A stretch of DNA of 35,562 nt from Candidatus Salinicoccus stercoripullorum (GTDB lineage Bacteria; Bacillota; Bacilli; Staphylococcales; Salinicoccaceae): contig DXHR01000020.1 in the NCBI GenBank assembly GCA_019113295.1, forward strand, positions 1-35,562, read 5' to 3'. Below are positions 1,371 to 20,952 of this stretch, piece after piece; the stretch's first letter is position 1, and the number at the start of each line of letters is the position of its first letter. The notes below the pieces were generated by a model. The model ran no database searches, was not told the origin of the DNA, and was given only the letters and a program-made list of their open reading frames with translations. Position numbers and translations under genes: made by a program.

Positions 1371-1709
1371 TTACTGGACCTGCTTTCCTGTGCCGTCGGA
1401 CATATTCATGATGACGACACCGACGATGATCACCAGAAGCCCGATGATATTGACCGGGGACAGTGTTTCATCGAACAGGAATATGCCGATGAGTCCGGCT
1501 CCGGCTGTGCCGAGGCCGGCCCACACACTATAGGCGAGACTCAGCGGAATGGACTTTAGGGCAAATATCAGACTCGTGAATGAAAGAGCAAAACATATCG
1601 CCATCGCTATCGTCGGCATGAGGTTGGAAAATCCCTCAGACAGATTCAACATCGTCGTCCCGGTCACTTCGAATACGATCGCACTGCCGAGAAAAATATA
1701 TTTCTTCAT
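1371..1709 (-). CDS. SMR-family multidrug/cation exporter subunit (second of pair)
   Basis: 112 residues with four membrane segments, the standard small multidrug resistance size. The essential proton/substrate-binding glutamate is present at residue 14 (IVFEVTGTTM), and SLAYSVWAGLG gives the conserved Tyr/Trp/Gly motif of helix 3. The start at ATG 1709 follows AAGGAG; a longer frame reading back into the neighbour is a shadow. It lies 14 bases after the other SMR gene, so the two are co-transcribed and probably form a heterodimer in the EbrAB/YkkCD manner. Paired SMR proteins export quaternary ammonium compounds, dyes or guanidinium; the sequence does not decide which. Control is inferred to be by the upstream TetR protein. 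Confidence 0.88.
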   Translation of the reverse strand: MKKYIFLGSAIVFEVTGTTMLNLSEGFSNLMPTIAMAICFALSFTSLIFALKSIPLSLAYSVWAGLGTAGAGLIGIFLFDETLSPVNIIGLLVIIVGVVIMNMSDGTGKQVQ

Positions 1710-1723
1710 GATCCATTTCTCCT

Positions 1724-2032
1724 TTATATCCTCATGAGCACAAGACCGATGATCAGTACGATGATGCCGACCACCGTTTTTGGGCGCAGCTGTTCCTTGA
1801 ACACACCGAAACCGATCAGGGCGGTCAGCGCCGTGCCCACTCCGCTCCATGCGGCATAGGCGAAACTGAGCGGTATCGTCATCAGAGCCAGTGACAGAAG
1901 GTAGAATGCCATTCCGTAGCCCAGTATTATTCCGACTACCGGCAGTCTGCTATTGGTGACTGCTGTGACTTTCATCATGCTGGAGCCGAAGACTTCAGAT
2001 AGTATGGCACCGAATAAAGTCAGGAATCCCAT
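1724..2032 (-). CDS. SMR-family multidrug/cation exporter subunit (first of pair)
   Basis: 102 residues, four membrane helices. The conserved glutamate sits at residue 13 (AILSEVFGSSMMK), and the FAYAAWSGVGTAL helix-3 motif is intact. The ATG abuts the TAA stop of the TetR gene (stop 2033-2035, start 2030-2032), which implies translational coupling. Two slightly different SMR subunits in tandem usually assemble as an antiparallel heterodimer in the membrane. No guanidine or other riboswitch is visible upstream; regulation appears to be through the TetR operator at 2581-2616 instead. Confidence 0.88.
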   Translation of the reverse strand: MGFLTLFGAILSEVFGSSMMKVTAVTNSRLPVVGIILGYGMAFYLLSLALMTIPLSFAYAAWSGVGTALTALIGFGVFKEQLRPKTVVGIIVLIIGLVLMRI

Positions 2033-2569
2033 TTAACTTCCCTCCTTTGACAAAATCCTGCATTCCTCGTGTATCACTTTTTCTATCTCACGCTTGTTCA
2101 CATCATCCCTGTAGTACAGTACATGGAACCAAATGCCGTCAGCAAGCAGGCGAAGTTTCATGATCTTCGACCGATCTCCCGTATCAGCCAGGAATGAATC
2201 ATTCCACTGGCCGGAAAAATGCTGCCAAAGGTCCAGGCTGTCCTCATCGGCATATGAAACGATGAAGACTGCAGGCAGAAAACTCTGCTGGTCCTGATTT
2301 AAATAATCAAGCGTCGCCAGTGCATACGCCCGGGTGAACTGGTAGTTGCCAGTCATACCTCTCTGATGCTTCTCCACTTTTTCATCAAAGTTGTCAATCA
2401 CCATCTGATTCATTTTCAAAAGCAGGTTCCCTTTGCTTTCAAAATGATAGAGCACACCGCCTTTTGTTATATCCGCCTTCTGGGCAAGATACTCCATGCT
2501 CAGTGCCTGTATGCCTTCGTTCTGTATGATTTCAGCCGCCATCAGCAGCAGCTCTTCTTTCTTACTCAT
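2033..2569 (-). CDS. TetR/AcrR-family repressor of the SMR exporter operon
   Basis: 178 residues. The N-terminal helix-turn-helix (residues about 5-50: LLMAAEIIQNEGIQALSMEYL, then KADITKGGVLYHFESKGNLL) is the classic TetR DNA-binding domain; the C-terminal ligand domain ends in WFHVLYYRDDVNKREIEKV. It has a GAGGTGAAAGC-ATG start and heads the operon tetR-smr-smr. A near-perfect palindrome lies 12 bases upstream of its start, so autorepression and repression of both exporters, relieved by an exported cation, is the likely circuit. The resemblance to QacR/YvdT-type regulators is in arrangement only. Confidence 0.88.
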   Translation of the reverse strand: MSKKEELLLMAAEIIQNEGIQALSMEYLAQKADITKGGVLYHFESKGNLLLKMNQMVIDNFDEKVEKHQRGMTGNYQFTRAYALATLDYLNQDQQSFLPAVFIVSYADEDSLDLWQHFSGQWNDSFLADTGDRSKIMKLRLLADGIWFHVLYYRDDVNKREIEKVIHEECRILSKEGS

Positions 2570-2641: not shown

Positions 2642-2670
2642 AAAAAAGTATGGACGGTATCCATACTTTT
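2642..2670 (-). terminator. Rho-independent terminator after the ABC-F remnant
   Basis: The inverted repeat AGTATGGA/TCCATACT with a 5-base loop is followed on the minus strand by TTTTTTATT. The plus strand also ends in TTTT, so it may work both ways. It ends the ABC-F remnant transcript. Confidence 0.75.
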
Positions 2671-2680
2671 AAATAAACAG

Positions 2681-3061
2681 CTATTCCATTCTGTCCAGTT
2701 TCCCATTTCTGATTTCATACACCAGGTCCGACGTCCATTCGACGAAGTATTTGTCGTGGGAAGTCAGGATGATGGTTCCCCTGTACACCCTGATGAATGT
2801 TTCCAGAGCTTCAATCGTGTCCAGGTCGATGAAATTCGTCGGTTCATCCAATATGATGATATTGGACGGCCTGACGAACATCAAAGCAAGCGAGACTCTC
2901 GTCTCCTCGCTTAGATTTGTATTGTCGGGGACATGCAGCCGGCTCAACAGTTCAAAGTTGAAGCTGTCATCCACTGCCGCATCCAGCTCGTCGATCTTCA
3001 ATACGTCCTTGTTACCAAAAATCACATCAATATCTTTCAATTTCACTGATAGTTCATTCAT
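2681..3061 (-). pseudogene. ABC-F ribosome-protection-type ATPase, internally deleted remnant
   Basis: 126 codons, against roughly 500 in intact antibiotic-resistance ABC-F proteins. Residues 1-25 (NELSVKLKDIDVIFGNKDVL) are the first strands of nucleotide-binding domain 1. The frame then jumps to the end of domain 2: a signature region reduced to NLSEETRVSLAL (the expected LSGGE has lost its glycines), an intact Walker B NIIILDEPTNFIDLDTIEALE, the switch histidine in TSHDKYFVE, and a normal C-terminus. Walker A is gone, so it cannot hydrolyse ATP. The similarity is to the Vga/Msr/Lsa-type group that protects ribosomes from lincosamides, streptogramins, pleuromutilins or macrolides. The start is ATG 3061 behind AGGGAG; an intact-looking attenuator precedes it. 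Confidence 0.8.
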
Positions 3062-3107
3062 TATAATTTGCACTCCCTATGAGTCTGCAAACTATATTTT
3101 TGCACAC

Positions 3108-3134
3108 AAAAAAGAGACAGCCTTATGCTATCTC
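3108..3134 (-). terminator. Leader terminator (attenuator) of the ABC-F remnant
   Basis: On the minus strand GAGATAGC-ATAAG-GCTGTCTC is followed by TTTTTT (one mismatch in the 8-bp stem). It sits between the leader peptide and the gene, where an attenuator must be. A second pair, CTGCAAAC/GTTTGCAG (3140-3147 with 3085-3092), embraces it and could form an alternative long-range fold. Confidence 0.75.
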
Positions 3135-3221
3135 CCCGTGTTTGCAGGATCATCCTAAAAATGGATACACCCGTCCCTTCAGAATATAGTTATAGCAAGA
3201 CTTTTGAATATTAATATTAAG

Positions 3222-3263
3222 TTAGTTATTCAAAAGTGATTGCCAAATTCTAGGGACACCCAT
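3222..3263 (-). CDS. Leader peptide MGVPRIWQSLLNN of ABC-F attenuator
   Basis: A 13-codon ORF with a perfect AAGGAG nine bases before its ATG, ending in TAA, placed between a good promoter and a terminator hairpin in front of the ABC-F remnant. In resistance ABC-F and erm genes, drug-stalled ribosomes on such short leaders open the downstream terminator. Here the first codons (AAAAATGG...GTCCCT, 3248-3268) are complementary to a segment about 90 bases later (AGGGAC...CCATTTTT on the minus strand, 3157-3178), and a second perfect repeat, ACTTTTGAATA/TATTCAAAAGT, lies at the leader's end. Both could be part of the switch. It is too short for gene finders. The function is inferred from layout. 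Confidence 0.7.
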   Translation of the reverse strand: MGVPRIWQSLLNN

Positions 3264-3288
3264 TTTTAAAATCTCCTTCCGTCCAATA

Positions 3289-3317
3289 TTTATAATGTCA
3301 TTTTACCACATTTCCAA
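3289..3317 (-). promoter_or_regulatory. Promoter of the ABC-F leader transcript
   Basis: On the minus strand there is a -35 TTGGAA (3312-3317), a 17-base spacer and a -10 TATAAA (3289-3294). Transcription would begin just before the leader peptide's ribosome binding site. Confidence 0.65.
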
Positions 3318-3336
3318 CTGGAAATTAAGAGCTTTT

Positions 3337-3735: not shown

Positions 3736-4542
3736 TCAGTCTCCATTCTGAAGCTGGTTGCCTTCTATTAATAATTTACCCAGAGCACTCCCCAGATAAT
3801 CAACCAGCGATTTCATGTCTTTTCCCTTATAGCTGCCCCTGTCGCCGTACTCACCCAGATAACCCGAGATTGCACATTGCAGCAGTTCCTGGTGATTTTC
3901 AGGAAGACTATTTTGTACTCTCTCCGCCGCATGGTGTTTCGGTATGATTTCACCTGTTTTCAAAGTCACTATCATCCGGCACAGTGTGAGCAGCGTATTC
4001 CTTTCGTCACCTGCATAGTTTTCCATCAGTTCCGGCAATGTATCTCCGATTGCTTTCTTAACATCTGTATCTGGTATTTCAGGAATAAACACCTCCGGAT
4101 TATCGCCATACAGTATGTAATGGTTATCCAGAAGCTGTTTTAGAACAATGACGAGATCGGGATTTTCCTCTTTTACCGGAACTTCTCCTGCCTCAAAATC
4201 CTGTCTGAGCCATTCACCGTACAGGAGTTCCTGTCTCGGCGGGTACTGCCATAGTGAGATATCGGATTCATCCACAATTGTAATTTCCATATACCTCTTA
4301 TTTTCAGGATTACCAATTTCACCTGATATTTTCATGTATGCTTCTATCAGCTGCCGCTTCTCGTAGGCTTTAAGCTCTCTTTTGCACATGATGAGTATAT
4401 CTATGTCACTGTCTTTCTTTAATCCACCTGCTGCAGCCGAGCCGAACAGATACGCCGCTTTCATTGACTGGCCGATCACCCTTTTGGACACTTCAAGGAC
4501 TTCATCAATCTGCCGTCTTGCCTTCTCCTCATATCCGTTCAC
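3736..4542 (-). CDS. Aminoglycoside nucleotidyltransferase-like protein (AadA/ANT(9)-type architecture)
   Basis: 268 residues, close to the length of spectinomycin/streptomycin adenylyltransferases. Residues 28-55 hold the nucleotidyltransferase motif AAYLFGSAAAGGLKKDSDIDILI: GS for phosphate contact and DSDID for the two metal-binding aspartates. The C-terminal half is helical (LLTLCRMIVTLKTGEIIPKHHAAE), as in the DUF4111 domain of AadA-type enzymes, with the conserved 'TLCR...T..G.I.SK..A' pattern. It would transfer AMP from ATP to an aminoglycoside, but real substrates cannot be read from sequence. The start is GTG at 4542 behind AAGGGG; it begins two bases after the stop of a nucleotidyltransferase stub, suggesting coupled translation. 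Confidence 0.8.
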   Translation of the reverse strand: MNGYEEKARRQIDEVLEVSKRVIGQSMKAAYLFGSAAAGGLKKDSDIDILIMCKRELKAYEKRQLIEAYMKISGEIGNPENKRYMEITIVDESDISLWQYPPRQELLYGEWLRQDFEAGEVPVKEENPDLVIVLKQLLDNHYILYGDNPEVFIPEIPDTDVKKAIGDTLPELMENYAGDERNTLLTLCRMIVTLKTGEIIPKHHAAERVQNSLPENHQELLQCAISGYLGEYGDRGSYKGKDMKSLVDYLGSALGKLLIEGNQLQNGD

Positions 4543-10202: not shown

Positions 10203-10916
10203 ATGAATAGTATGACCAAATGGGCCTTGGCCCTGACAGCAGCACTGGCTGCACTGTCTGCAATCATATATTTCACATTTATCAATACGGGTGAGGAAAA
10301 TGTGCCTCAGGTCGCCGAAGCCAGTCCGGATGACATCAAAGTCGCAGCAGTCGGCGACAGTACGACTTACGGTCTTATGGTAGATAACCGGGAAAAGAAT
10401 GCGTATCCCCACAAACTATCAGAACAACTCGGTGAAGGCTACTGGGTAGGCAATTTTGGCGCAAACAACTACGCTGCCATGAAAAGTGCGGACTTCCCCT
10501 ATCCCGAAACCAAGGAGTACAGTGACAGCCTTGAACTTGAAGCGGATATCGCTGTAATCATGCTCGGCACCAACGATTCCAAAGAGACCAATTGGCAGGG
10601 CAAGGAACAATTCAGAAAAGAATATTCAGAACTGGTCGACGCCTATGCCGAAAGCAACCCAGATATGCAAATATACTTGGCCACTCCACCGAAAGCATTC
10701 AATGATGCGGATATGACCGGTGATATAAATAATCAAAACGTCGAAAAGATCACAGATGTGGTAAAGGAAACAGCAGCTAAAAAAGGAACCGGCCTCATTG
10801 ATATCAATCAGCTGACTCAGGAGGAAAGGGACTGGTTCCAAATAGACGGCATCCATCCCAATGCTGAAGGTGCCGACAGAATCGCCGAAGAAGTAGAAAA
10901 ACACATTGCCAACTAA
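10203..10916 (+). CDS. Exported SGNH/GDSL-type hydrolase
   Basis: 237 residues with an N-terminal membrane anchor or signal (residues 6-27), so it probably works outside the cell. The SGNH blocks are all present: VGDSTTYG (nucleophile Ser53), a block II-like NFGANNYAAM (oxyanion glycine/asparagine), LGTNDS (Asn124), and DGIHPN (Asp215, His218). Family members cleave esters of lipids, carbohydrates or cell-wall acyl groups; the substrate here is open. The start is ATG 10203 behind AGGTGA; a longer upstream frame from 10125 has no site and lacks a sensible leader. It is monocistronic with its own terminator. Confidence 0.87.
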   Translation: MNSMTKWALALTAALAALSAIIYFTFINTGEENVPQVAEASPDDIKVAAVGDSTTYGLMVDNREKNAYPHKLSEQLGEGYWVGNFGANNYAAMKSADFPYPETKEYSDSLELEADIAVIMLGTNDSKETNWQGKEQFRKEYSELVDAYAESNPDMQIYLATPPKAFNDADMTGDINNQNVEKITDVVKETAAKKGTGLIDINQLTQEERDWFQIDGIHPNAEGADRIAEEVEKHIAN

Positions 10917-10955
10917 AAAAACGCTATTCCAATCTCTTGTCGGAATAGCGTTTTT
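10915..10955. terminator. Bidirectional terminator after SGNH hydrolase
   Basis: AAAAAACGCTATTCC and GGAATAGCGTTTTT pair perfectly around a loop of about 11 bases; the T-run makes it a good plus-strand terminator, and the A-run allows minus-strand use by the converging YkvI gene. Confidence 0.85.
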
Positions 10956-18301: not shown

Positions 18302-19336
18302 TTATTCAACTGATCCGTCGATGTCCCCTGCCTCTTCCGAAGAGATGATGTCATCTGGATTCGGCTTTTTGATTTCCTTATCATCAAACGCACCATAGTC
18401 TGAGTAATTCAAGATGATTTCGACTTTAACCTCCTGCTGTGGATCCTGCTCCGAAGGTGCCGATGCGATGAGGTTCGCGCTTTCAAGTTCCCCGGAGTCC
18501 TGGTTTATGAATGCAACAAGCCCGGTTTCAAGTTCCTCCATATTTGTACCTGTAAATTCCACCTCGAAATATTCCTGATAAAGCTGGTGGACTTCGTCAT
18601 CATTTCCTGTGTAATAAAGAAGGTCATAGTTCCCGGCTTCCTTCACCTCCATGGAATCCGGCATCTGCTCTATAATTTCATGTATTGTGGAATACGTACC
18701 ATATACCAGCTCATCCGGTCCATATTCTCCTGAATAATCCGCCCATCCTTCTTCAGTATTCAGATACAATTCATCTGTTTCACTGTTTGCATATCCATGC
18801 GGTGTAGTCACATTGAAATTCTCATCTACATAATCAGAAGCGACTTCCAGTGTGTCGTCGGTTTCGTCAATCTCAGCCCTGTTGCCAGTGAATGATTCAT
18901 CCAGGACCTGTTCACCATCAGTAACTTCGATGGCAATTGCGGTTTCCTGCATATATGATGTGACTTCTGACGGCTCCTTCAGGACGTCCTCTACAGACTT
19001 ATCTGTTTCTGTGGCATTTTCTATCATGTCCGCTTTATCCTGGCCAAGATCATATGCCGCTTTCATGTCTTCTTCGTTGACTTCTCCTTCAGATGTATCC
19101 TCCGATGATTCTGAACCTGAAGAACCTTCATCGGATTCAGAAGCATCGACATCCGATCCAGTGTCCTCTTCACTGGATTCCTCTTCTGCACTCTCTTCTT
19201 CCGTGGACTCCTCTTCTGTGGTTTCCTCTGTAGCTGTTTCTTCCGCTGTCTCTTCCTCAGTATTCTCTTCTCCGCCACCGTTGCATGCTGCTAAAAAAAG
19301 CGCTCCGACAAGTGTCGCTGAAAACAATTTCTTCAT
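18302..19336 (-). CDS. Lipoprotein A: acidic-linker lipoprotein (paralogue of B)
   Basis: 344 residues. A signal peptide with lipobox (LVGALFLAACNG, Cys18) is followed by a highly acidic, repetitive Glu/Thr/Ser/Asp linker from about residue 23 to 88 (runs such as ETATEETTEEESTEEESAEE), then a folded region about 90-344. Shared blocks with paralogue B are YDLGQDKADMIENA, EPSEVTSYMQET, DYVDENFNV, HGYANSETDELYL, TIHEIIEQMPDS, YYTGNDDEVHQLYQ and VEIILNYSDYGAFD. The folded part vaguely resembles DUF6612/LppX-like lipoproteins, whose role is unclear. It should sit on the outer face of the membrane with its domain pushed out by the charged linker. The start follows GGGTGGGTGAA. No catalytic motif is seen. 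Confidence 0.85.
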   Translation of the reverse strand: MKKLFSATLVGALFLAACNGGGEENTEEETAEETATEETTEEESTEEESAEEESSEEDTGSDVDASESDEGSSGSESSEDTSEGEVNEEDMKAAYDLGQDKADMIENATETDKSVEDVLKEPSEVTSYMQETAIAIEVTDGEQVLDESFTGNRAEIDETDDTLEVASDYVDENFNVTTPHGYANSETDELYLNTEEGWADYSGEYGPDELVYGTYSTIHEIIEQMPDSMEVKEAGNYDLLYYTGNDDEVHQLYQEYFEVEFTGTNMEELETGLVAFINQDSGELESANLIASAPSEQDPQQEVKVEIILNYSDYGAFDDKEIKKPNPDDIISSEEAGDIDGSVE

Positions 19337-19457
19337 ATAAATTCACCCACCCAAATGTAAATTATGAATTTCTTACTATCATTGTAACATTTTCGTGATA
19401 TTTTCGTAACATTTCTCCATAAAAAACACAATAGTTTTAAAAATTATCCGAAAACCA

Positions 19458-19693
19458 GACTGGTAACGAGCTTTGACGGCCATCGTAGAACAAACGGAGG
19501 CCGGTAATGAGCTTTGACGGACACCGTCGAACAAACGGAGGCCGGTAATGAGATTTGACGGCCGCCGCAGAACATACGGAGGCCGGTAACGAACTTTGAC
19601 GGCCGCCGCAGAACGAACGGAGGCCGGCAACGAGATTTGACGGCCGCCCCAGAACATACGGAGGCCGGTAACGAGATTTGACGGCCGCCGTCG
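19458..19693. repeat. 41-bp tandem repeat array, about 5.8 copies
   Basis: Units start at 19458, 19499, 19540, 19581, 19622 and 19663 (the last is partial, to 19693). The consensus begins GGCCGGTAACGAGATTTGAC and continues with GGCCGCCGCAGAACAAACGGA. Units differ by a few point changes, e.g. TAATGAG/TAACGAA and CATACGGA/CAAACGGA/CGAACGGA. It lies between the genes for lipoproteins A and B. Because 41 is not a multiple of three, reading frames change from unit to unit, so the open frames across it look accidental. GGCCGG and CGGCCG self-complementary cores suggest short hairpins. Confidence 0.9.
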
Positions 19694-19702
19694 TTGAAAC
19701 AC

Positions 19703-19732
19703 AAAAGACGGAAACCTTTCAAGGTTTCCGTC
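19703..19732 (-). terminator. Terminator after lipoprotein B
   Basis: A 12-bp stem GACGGAAACCTT/AAGGTTTCCGTC, followed on the minus strand by TTTTGTGTTT, ends the lipoprotein B transcript before the repeat array. Confidence 0.8.
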
Positions 19733-19752
19733 CCCAATCCTTCCTTACACTT

Positions 19753-20865
19753 TTACTCGACTGATCCTTCGATGTCTCCATCGTCACCTTCTGTTCCGGA
19801 TCCATCCATGTTATCCGGATTCGGTTTCTTTATTTCTGTACCGCCGTCAAAGATACCATATTCCTGATAGTTCAGGATGATTTCGATGGTGAGAATCTGA
19901 TCTGGATTCTGCTGACCCGGGGCTGATGCTAACAGGTTTGCACTCTCCAGGTCTCCGGACTTTTTGTTGATGAATGCCACGAAGCCCAGTTCAAGTTGAT
20001 CCATGTCCGCCCCCGTAAACTCCACCTGGAATGTATCCTGATAGAGCTGATGGACGATATCATCGTTGCCGGTATAGTAGAGGATGTCATAATCACCTTC
20101 CTCCATCACCTGCAGTGAATCGGGCATCTGTTCGATGATTTCATGGGTTTTGGAATAGGTGCCATATATCAGTTCCTCCACTCCGTGTTGTGTGGAATAA
20201 TCCTCCCATCCTGCTTCTGAGTACAGGAACAGTTCATCTGTCTCACTGTTACCATAGCCATGGGGCTGGATGATTTCGTAATTTTCATCGAAGTAGTCAG
20301 AAGCCACCTCGAGTCCCCCATCCGATTCATCGACCTCTGCTGTGATTCCCTGGAATGACTGGTCTATGATTTTTTCACCTTCTGTGACTTCGATGATGAT
20401 TGAAGTGTCCTGTATATATGATGTAATTTCAGAAGGTGCTTTAAGCACATCATCGACAGTATTATCAGTTTCAGATGCACTTTCCACCATGTCCACTTTA
20501 TCCTGGTCGATATCATACGCACTTCTCAGCTCTTCCTCATCAATCTCCTCTTCTGTCAGATCCTCGGACTGATCTTCTGATGATGTTTCCGTGGTCCCGG
20601 GCTCTTCAGTGGATTCGTCATCTTCCTCTGTACTGTCGGTGCCGCCGGAGTCTTCACTCCCTTCATCATCCTCTTCTGCCGATCCTTCGTCTGCCGCGCT
20701 CGCAGAATCATCTTCTGTCGTCTCTTCCTCTGTTGTTGCTTCTTCATCAGTCATCTCTTCGGTGGTTTCCTCCTGACCATTCTCTTCCTCCAAGTTCTCA
20801 TCCCCGCCGCCGCATGCTGCCAGGAACAAAGCACCGGCCAGCGTTACCGGGAACAACTTCTTCAT
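19753..20865 (-). CDS. Lipoprotein B: acidic-linker lipoprotein (paralogue of A)
   Basis: 370 residues. The lipobox LAGALFLAACGGG (Cys18) implies a lipid anchor. An acidic linker (about 24-115) is longer than in paralogue A and rich in Glu/Asp/Ser/Thr/Gly. The C-terminal domain then follows A block for block: YDIDQDKVDMVESA, APSEITSYIQDT, DYFDENYEI, HGYGNSETDELFLY, KTHEIIEQMPDS, YYTGNDDIVHQLYQ, IEIILNYQEYGIFD. The start was set at ATG 20865 because a signal peptide begins there and GTGGGTGG lies upstream; the longer frame upstream is not a sensible leader. The gene has its own terminator. The duplication with a diverged linker suggests the folded domain is under selection while the linker is free. 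Confidence 0.87.
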   Translation of the reverse strand: MKKLFPVTLAGALFLAACGGGDENLEEENGQEETTEEMTDEEATTEEETTEDDSASAADEGSAEEDDEGSEDSGGTDSTEEDDESTEEPGTTETSSEDQSEDLTEEEIDEEELRSAYDIDQDKVDMVESASETDNTVDDVLKAPSEITSYIQDTSIIIEVTEGEKIIDQSFQGITAEVDESDGGLEVASDYFDENYEIIQPHGYGNSETDELFLYSEAGWEDYSTQHGVEELIYGTYSKTHEIIEQMPDSLQVMEEGDYDILYYTGNDDIVHQLYQDTFQVEFTGADMDQLELGFVAFINKKSGDLESANLLASAPGQQNPDQILTIEIILNYQEYGIFDGGTEIKKPNPDNMDGSGTEGDDGDIEGSVE

Positions 20866-20952
20866 AAAATTCCACCCACCCACTCTATGAATTTTAATTA
20901 ACGGAATTTTCTTATTTCCGTAATATTTCTGTAACATTACTATATTACCCAC

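Follow-up and report, generated by a model that had tools for sequence, protein, structure and literature searches.

Attenuators of msr-type and related resistance genes

Among the closest known systems are the leaders of msr(A)/msr(C) and mef-msr(D), whose peptides are given as MTASMRLK, MTASMKLRFELLNNN and MTASMRLR (PMC4335068, Table 3); in these leaders, as in the one described here, a short upstream open reading frame (uORF) lies approximately 200-300 nt before the gene, a stem-loop forms over the uORF, an intrinsic terminator follows, and the unit contains an Msr-type ABC-F protein. The likeness extends to the RNA of the S. aureus msr(A) leader, whose similarity to the present one is detectable, and to the msr(C) peptide, which shares with it the residues LLNN; the differences lie in the N-terminus, MG[IV]P or MIP here and MTAS there, and in the motif, whose final basic residue is replaced here by Trp (R-I-W). 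The ErmDL peptide of erm(K), reported as MTHSMRLRFPTLNQ (PMC8298421, PMC10314930), likewise carries an Arg-X-(A-site residue) arrest motif a few residues from the N-terminus, and its LNQ tail recurs in some Jeotgalicoccus leaders; it controls, however, a methyltransferase, and its A-site residue is Arg and not Trp.

Two further systems share the architecture but not the sensor. As described in PMC9226507, the B. subtilis vmlR leader has the same arrangement of an anti-antiterminator around the uORF, an antiterminator, a terminator and a hairpin sequestering the Shine-Dalgarno sequence (SD), but its uORF has three codons, the ribosome stalls at initiation, induction is by lincosamides and pleuromutilins, and the ABC-F protein is a different one; the uORFs compared here are 12-16 codons long, and no vmlR-type three-codon uORF was found. 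MsrDL (MYLIFM) controls a terminator before an Msr ABC-F gene in response to macrolides, as would the present leader, but it is described as stalling at the stop codon and without a basic motif (PMC10314930).

The locus considered here lies in a window of 35,562 nucleotides, which is one whole contig (DXHR01000020.1) of the 2.29-Mb genome of Candidatus Salinicoccus stercoripullorum (a 37-contig draft, 99.93% complete); switch and broken ABC-F gene are both on the minus strand, with leader elements spanning window positions 3308-3059. There is good reason to regard the locus as a macrolide-inducible transcription attenuator (probably acting on translation as well) that belonged to a chromosomal ribosome-protection gene, an ABC-F of Msr-like type, and that persisted when two in-frame deletions recently removed most of this gene. 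What appears to be new is an R-I-W variant of the known msr-type attenuator class and, in the window, a copy of it that looks like a recently disconnected switch; the disconnection itself would be ordinary evolution, and the greater interest lies in the R-I-W sensor.

Promoter, ribosome-binding site and leader peptide

The leader was compared with its relatives in a set of 13 distinct sequences out of 14 (the leader of S. halitifaciens is identical to that of genome G023 and was counted once). All 13 carry an extended -10 promoter element of the form TGNTADAAT, represented in the window by TGGTAAAAT (3300..3308, minus strand). The sequence-only reading had proposed instead the promoter TTGGAA-17-TATAAA (3317-3289); these letters are present, but TATAAA occurs upstream in just 5 of the 13 leaders, at 10 to 14 nt 5' of the aligned start, and transcription from that -10 would be expected to begin a mere 4 nt or so 5' of the SD. 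This candidate was rejected as unconserved in favour of the extended -10.

The strong ribosome-binding site and the 13-codon leader of the same reading are, on the other hand, both in place: an AAGGAG SD (3273..3278, minus strand), with AGGAG found 5' of the uORF in 13/13 leaders, precedes the uORF MGVPRIWQSLLNN of 13 codons plus TAA (3222..3263, minus strand), whose codons 5-7 encode the presumed arrest motif R-I-W. In the 13 distinct leaders the peptide begins with MG[IV]PRIW or MIPRIW despite synonymous changes in the underlying codons (two codons used for Gly, four for Pro, three for Arg); conservation extends through the Trp codon in every leader, while the second half of the uORF varies. 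To judge from this pattern, the uORF upstream of the resistance gene appears to be conserved as a peptide.

RNA structure of the leader

The leader folds at -74.4 kcal/mol, compared with -46.2 +/- 4.1 kcal/mol for its shuffled versions (z -7.0; reached by 0 of 200). The repressed structure consists of SL-1, a long stem-loop with the uORF in its 5' arm, assigned as anti-antiterminator and supported by folding and covariation (3146..3277, minus strand); of an intrinsic terminator stem-loop (3111..3137, minus strand), whose core is formed by GAGATAGC (3134-3127) and GCTGTCTC (3121-3114) and runs into six T; and of SL-4, a stem-loop of 14 pairs over the downstream SD (3077-3072), at 3062..3096 on the same strand. 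The complementary segments and the terminator with its T6 had already been recognised, and correctly placed, from the letters of the window. In the alignment of the 13 leaders this structure comprises 72 pairs, and 88.5% of 905 cells are paired, as compared to 35.3-48.5% when the structure is slid along; cells with double changes number 20, against 8.3 +/- 2.9 in shuffles (0 of 500 as high). Pairs in which both sides have changed are seven, two of them in the terminator; this total is equalled or exceeded in 51 of 500 shuffles, and one slid version has nine. As far as the alignment can tell, the base pairs of the leader covary. Thirteen of the 14 pairs of SL-4 are invariant over the 13 leaders, an invariance partly due to selection of the leaders, which were chosen via this very pattern.

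Between leader and gene, the intrinsic terminator is faced by a competing antiterminator, the segment TGCTATAACTATAT (3184..3197, minus strand), whose TGCTAT can pair with the 5' arm of the terminator and which includes AACTATAT, able to pair with ATATAGTT at 3097-3090. When the uORF is covered (RNA masked up to 11 nt beyond the Trp codon) and the nascent RNA is folded, 4-8 of the 8 bases of the terminator 5' arm pair upstream in 13/13 leaders; in the uncovered nascent RNA 0-5 of them are paired, and in 13/13 leaders none with the 3' arm of SL-1. The support from shuffling is good for half of the leaders and weak for three: the antiterminator pairing is matched by 0-17 of 300 shuffles in seven leaders (4 for the window), by 27-34 in three and by 53-59 in the remaining three (G002, G008 and G010), and the folding energy as such is not unusual in most leaders. 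Covariation of this helix is weak, being limited to one pair, changed from UA to CG in 3 of the 13 leaders and reached by 72 of 500 shuffles. At equilibrium, with the uORF covered, the terminator persists with P of at least 0.96 in the ten leaders considered (three from Jeotgalicoccus being left out), a clear gain in accessibility of the SD being confined to G002, G008 and G010; switching must therefore be kinetic, a model which is the same as that of the vmlR (PMC9226507) and mef/mel (PMC4335068) attenuators, where the order of folding is reported to be decisive.

The following sequence of events may be proposed. Without drug, ribosomes would clear the 13-codon leader, SL-1 would fold, the terminator would form and the RNA would end near position 3108; in any transcript reading through, SL-4 would hide the ribosome-binding site of the gene. 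In the presence of a cladinose macrolide, we infer that the ribosome would stall once Arg-Ile has entered the nascent chain and the A site awaits Trp, thus occupying the leader half of SL-1; the freed 3' half would pair with the 5' arm of the terminator, whose capture would let the polymerase read through, and pairing of AACTATAT with ATATAGTT could help to open SL-4. In the strain of the window, induction would yield only a 126-residue fragment without Walker A, from which no protection is expected.

Distribution among relatives

Searched as DNA, the leader has matches in 9 of 12 Salinicoccus genomes, including its own; an intact ABC-F gene of 483-485 codons lies behind the leader in 7 of the 12, and in three (G006, G007 and G011) neither leader nor ABC-F gene was seen. 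The peptide pattern M-G-[VI]-P-R-I-W was found in 11 of 33 genomes of the family and in the same 11 among 157 genomes of the order, the reversed control giving 0; the own genome holds no second copy of MG[IV]PRIW. In a wider search, the exact SD-hairpin pattern occurs at 10 loci among 84,980 species, all at the start of an ABC-F gene and all in Salinicoccus or Jeotgalicoccus; seven of these genes are full-length (483-485 codons), two remain open as far as the DNA covered extends and one is the truncated gene of S. albus. No instance of the leader apart from an ABC-F start was found in the genus, family, order or 84,980-species searches, and neither the viral contigs (exact SL-4 pattern) nor the plasmids (blastn with the leader) gave a match. 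The ABC-F attenuator layout suggested from the sequence alone is accordingly conserved, with covarying pairs, before intact homologues of about 484 residues in Salinicoccus and Jeotgalicoccus, where absence of the leader would have spoken against it.

More distant similarity was detected by nhmmer, in which the leader matches three of five plasmid msr-like leaders, namely those of E. faecium (5e-13), Vagococcus (1e-5) and S. aureus msr(A) (1e-4), E-values to be read in the light of five short stretches and high bias scores; the two other comparators among these five, msr(G) and msr(I), gave no match. The leader is also linked to two genomes of other families, G160 (6e-10) and G395 (6e-11).

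In S. albus the leader match is confined to the terminator half: promoter and uORF are gone, and the terminator half now lies directly behind a nitrilase-like gene; the ABC-F frame stops after 94 codons, in what by eye is an array of repeats of about 40 bp at the contig end. A unit made of gene plus switch can apparently die in two ways, by loss of the gene with the switch kept, as in the window, or by loss of promoter and uORF with the terminator left behind another gene, as in S. albus.

Drug class and the R-I-W motif

The four intact relatives score best with the ABCF_Msr_all family model, at 635.3-645.3 bits in an almost full-length match (below its cut-off of 680), compared with 385-391 bits for the Vga model; they pass the generic ribo_prot_ABC_F model, with 470-480 bits against a cut-off of 380. 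The sequence-only reading had compared the layout first with that before vga, vmlR and lsa, and had named lincosamides and pleuromutilins among the drugs; the Msr scores, together with the resemblance of the leader to some msr-type leaders, speak for a different class. Lincosamides, pleuromutilins or type A streptogramins could still be what the same attenuator responds to, given that its plan of SL-1, terminator and SD hairpin is that of the vmlR leader (PMC9226507), but this is unlikely in view of the margin of Msr over Vga and of a uORF conserved up to Trp in 13 leaders, where that of vmlR has three codons.

The R/K-X-R/K arrest motif is replaced in the window leader by R-I-W. This substitution was followed in a survey of 56 ABC-F loci (loci being present in 30 rows out of 37 at the order level and in 30 out of 45 at the class level, with 4 shared and the class sample drawn from a larger group), in which a uORF was accepted when it had an SD and the motif [RK]-hydrophobic-[RKW]; the 26 loci lacking one are uninformative. 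R-I-W uORFs occur in 17 of 18 same-family loci, spread over four genera; outside the family, a motif-bearing uORF is found at 13 of 38 loci, in 12 of them as R/K-X-R/K, and the thirteenth (G127, with R-I-W 52 nt 5' of the gene) looks like chance. The chances are about even that in the Salinicoccus-Jeotgalicoccus family Arg-Ile-Trp has taken the place of Arg-X-Arg/Lys in a swap that created a natural +X(W) sensor, one which in the window strain outlived its gene. The E. faecium plasmid NZ_CP131828.1 carries a related leader, with the uORF MTASIRLWFNLLK placed 233 nt 5' of an ABC-F gene whose product is 55.6% identical to that of S. sediminis; its motif reads R-L-W, a +X(W) outside the family, which argues against a strictly family-bound swap.

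Inverse toeprinting of a random library with erythromycin is reported to yield, among other arrest motifs, +X(+), XP(X), +X(W) and XP(W) (PMC6238534), and the window peptide holds both V-P-(R) and R-I-(W). The combination of an Msr-like gene with the +X(W)-type motif R-I-W makes a macrolide the likely inducer. In ErmDL, exchanging the A-site Arg for Trp relieves stalling by the ketolide telithromycin, while the +X+ motif is described as dispensable with erythromycin (PMC8298421); R-I-W may consequently not serve all macrolides, and the sensor should, on this prediction, respond to cladinose macrolides but only weakly to ketolides. The earlier proposal, that drug-dependent stalling of ribosomes operates an attenuator before an ABC-F gene, is supported in its outline, stalling and drug being inferred from the features above. 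In a full-text search covering few subscription journals, nothing relevant was found on this peptide or on Salinicoccus leaders. The +X(W) motif, known from a random-peptide screen with erythromycin, appears here in nature, conserved at the core of a family of leaders from four genera, and natural R-I-W leaders allow one to ask whether Trp in the A site narrows a sensor to cladinose macrolides; if the swap is real, the window strain is a natural experiment on a sensor surviving its gene.

The broken gene and the age of the break

The gene behind the switch is a 126-residue ABC-F remnant (stop included; 2681..3061, minus strand, ATG at 3061), made of 23 N-terminal codons, part of ABC domain 1 and the 75 C-terminal codons; its best family match is again ABCF_Msr_all, with 110 bits. 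Compared to S. sediminis, 126 of about 484 codons are left after two in-frame deletions of 153 bp (junction at 2983..3004) and 921 bp (junction at 2895..2917, joining the two ABC signature regions), both on the minus strand and both at short matching stretches. The remnant does not have two ABC domains: Walker A and most of both domains are gone, as had been noticed from the start, and no stop interrupts the 126 codons. An error of assembly, to which a 37-contig draft and junctions at matching stretches might lend some colour, is scarcely credible, since the genome is 99.93% complete, the remnant has point changes of its own and no second copy of the gene was found in the assembly.

Over the remnant codons, the window branch has accumulated 8 nonsynonymous and 12 synonymous changes and the sister branch 0 and 5, a contrast that is not significant (Fisher p 0.14). 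Neutrality along the whole branch would predict about 42 nonsynonymous changes; if all 8 were to postdate the break, the gene would have evolved freely over about 19% of the branch, or over 37% when the Poisson upper limit is taken. The dN/dS of the window remnant is 0.116 against S. sediminis and 0.232 and 0.052 against two further relatives, compared with 0.203, 0.041 and 0.087 among the three relatives over the same codons, so that relaxed constraint is not evident. The substitution counts say that the break is likely to be recent. Of the explanations offered by the sequence-only reading for an undamaged switch before a dead gene, very recent decay is the likely one, with the 8 changes counted against about 42 in its support, and it would be enough to explain the intact switch.

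It might alternatively be supposed that the in-frame product has been retained as a drug-induced mini-protein, with the Walker B and H-loop region but no Walker A. Both deletions keep the frame (a chance of 1 in 9 if free), the 126 codons are open, dN/dS against S. sediminis falls within the 0.041-0.203 of intact relatives and nonsynonymous changes stay well below the whole-branch neutral number; recency, however, accounts for the same facts, the 0:5 of the sister and the 8:12 of the window (nonsynonymous to synonymous), although not significantly different, lean the other way, and no comparable fused short form was seen in the other 11 genomes of the genus. This makes the mini-protein highly improbable.

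The leader itself has one window-specific change in 226 sites (four in the sister, and one more unassigned), compared with 16 in 225 sites of the C-terminal coding piece; the 46 nt 5' of the leader have two, and one in the sister. The single leader change sits in the downstream SD; S. halitifaciens has the same state, and its ABC-F gene is open as far as the DNA covered goes, so the change need not be damage. Such slow change could mean that the leader RNA or peptide is kept for a job of its own, with or without the gene: about 6 changes would be expected if all 8 nonsynonymous ones postdated the break, and the probability of at most one is 0.017 (of at most two, 0.061). Most of the branch, however, seems to be older than the break, so that few leader changes are expected anyway; moreover, every leader located in these searches stands before an ABC-F start, as do all 10 SL-4 pattern loci, the three Salinicoccus genomes devoid of the gene are devoid of the leader too, and S. 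albus lost promoter and uORF together with the gene. The suggestion of a leader useful by itself is therefore weak and its truth improbable, and a switch recently separated from its gene is the reading to be preferred.

Neighbouring genes and other features of the window

Downstream of the remnant a hairpin terminator (2642..2670, minus strand; -12.3 kcal/mol, T6) is followed on the same strand by genes for a TetR regulator and two SMR efflux proteins (EbrB/EbrA-like; window 1371-2569); by eye, an inverted repeat lies immediately 5' of tetR. The switch might now govern these genes, as the idea that it controls something else would require, and the common strand and the 111 nt from the stop of the remnant to the start of tetR would allow it; yet the hairpin stands in between, and the same gene order is found behind the intact ABC-F gene of S. 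sediminis, S. carnicancri and S. halodurans. On these grounds the candidate was rejected, the odds in its favour being slight.

The gene upstream of the leader is taken to be SnoaL-like; at the thresholds applied, neither Pfam nor NCBIfam gave a match for it. Also upstream, a gene for an ANT(9)-like aminoglycoside nucleotidyltransferase (window 3736-4542) adjoins the locus. In S. carnicancri approximately 285 additional bases separate the SnoaL-like gene from the leader as compared to the window, and in the S. carnicancri stretch compared the ANT(9)-like gene is matched over its last 32 codons only (positions 10851-10946 of that stretch); this resistance-like neighbour may be decaying as well.

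Elsewhere in the own genome, a second ABC-F gene (another contig, positions 1-1400) runs off the contig end; its best family score is with Vga (440.7 bits, under the cut-off of 725), and it is not a copy of the broken gene. Rfam gave 0 matches at gathering score within the window. Far from the locus, at 18302-20952, a tandem pair of similar acidic lipoprotein-like ORFs can be recognised by eye, the two being separated by a repeat-rich stretch (19379-19737).
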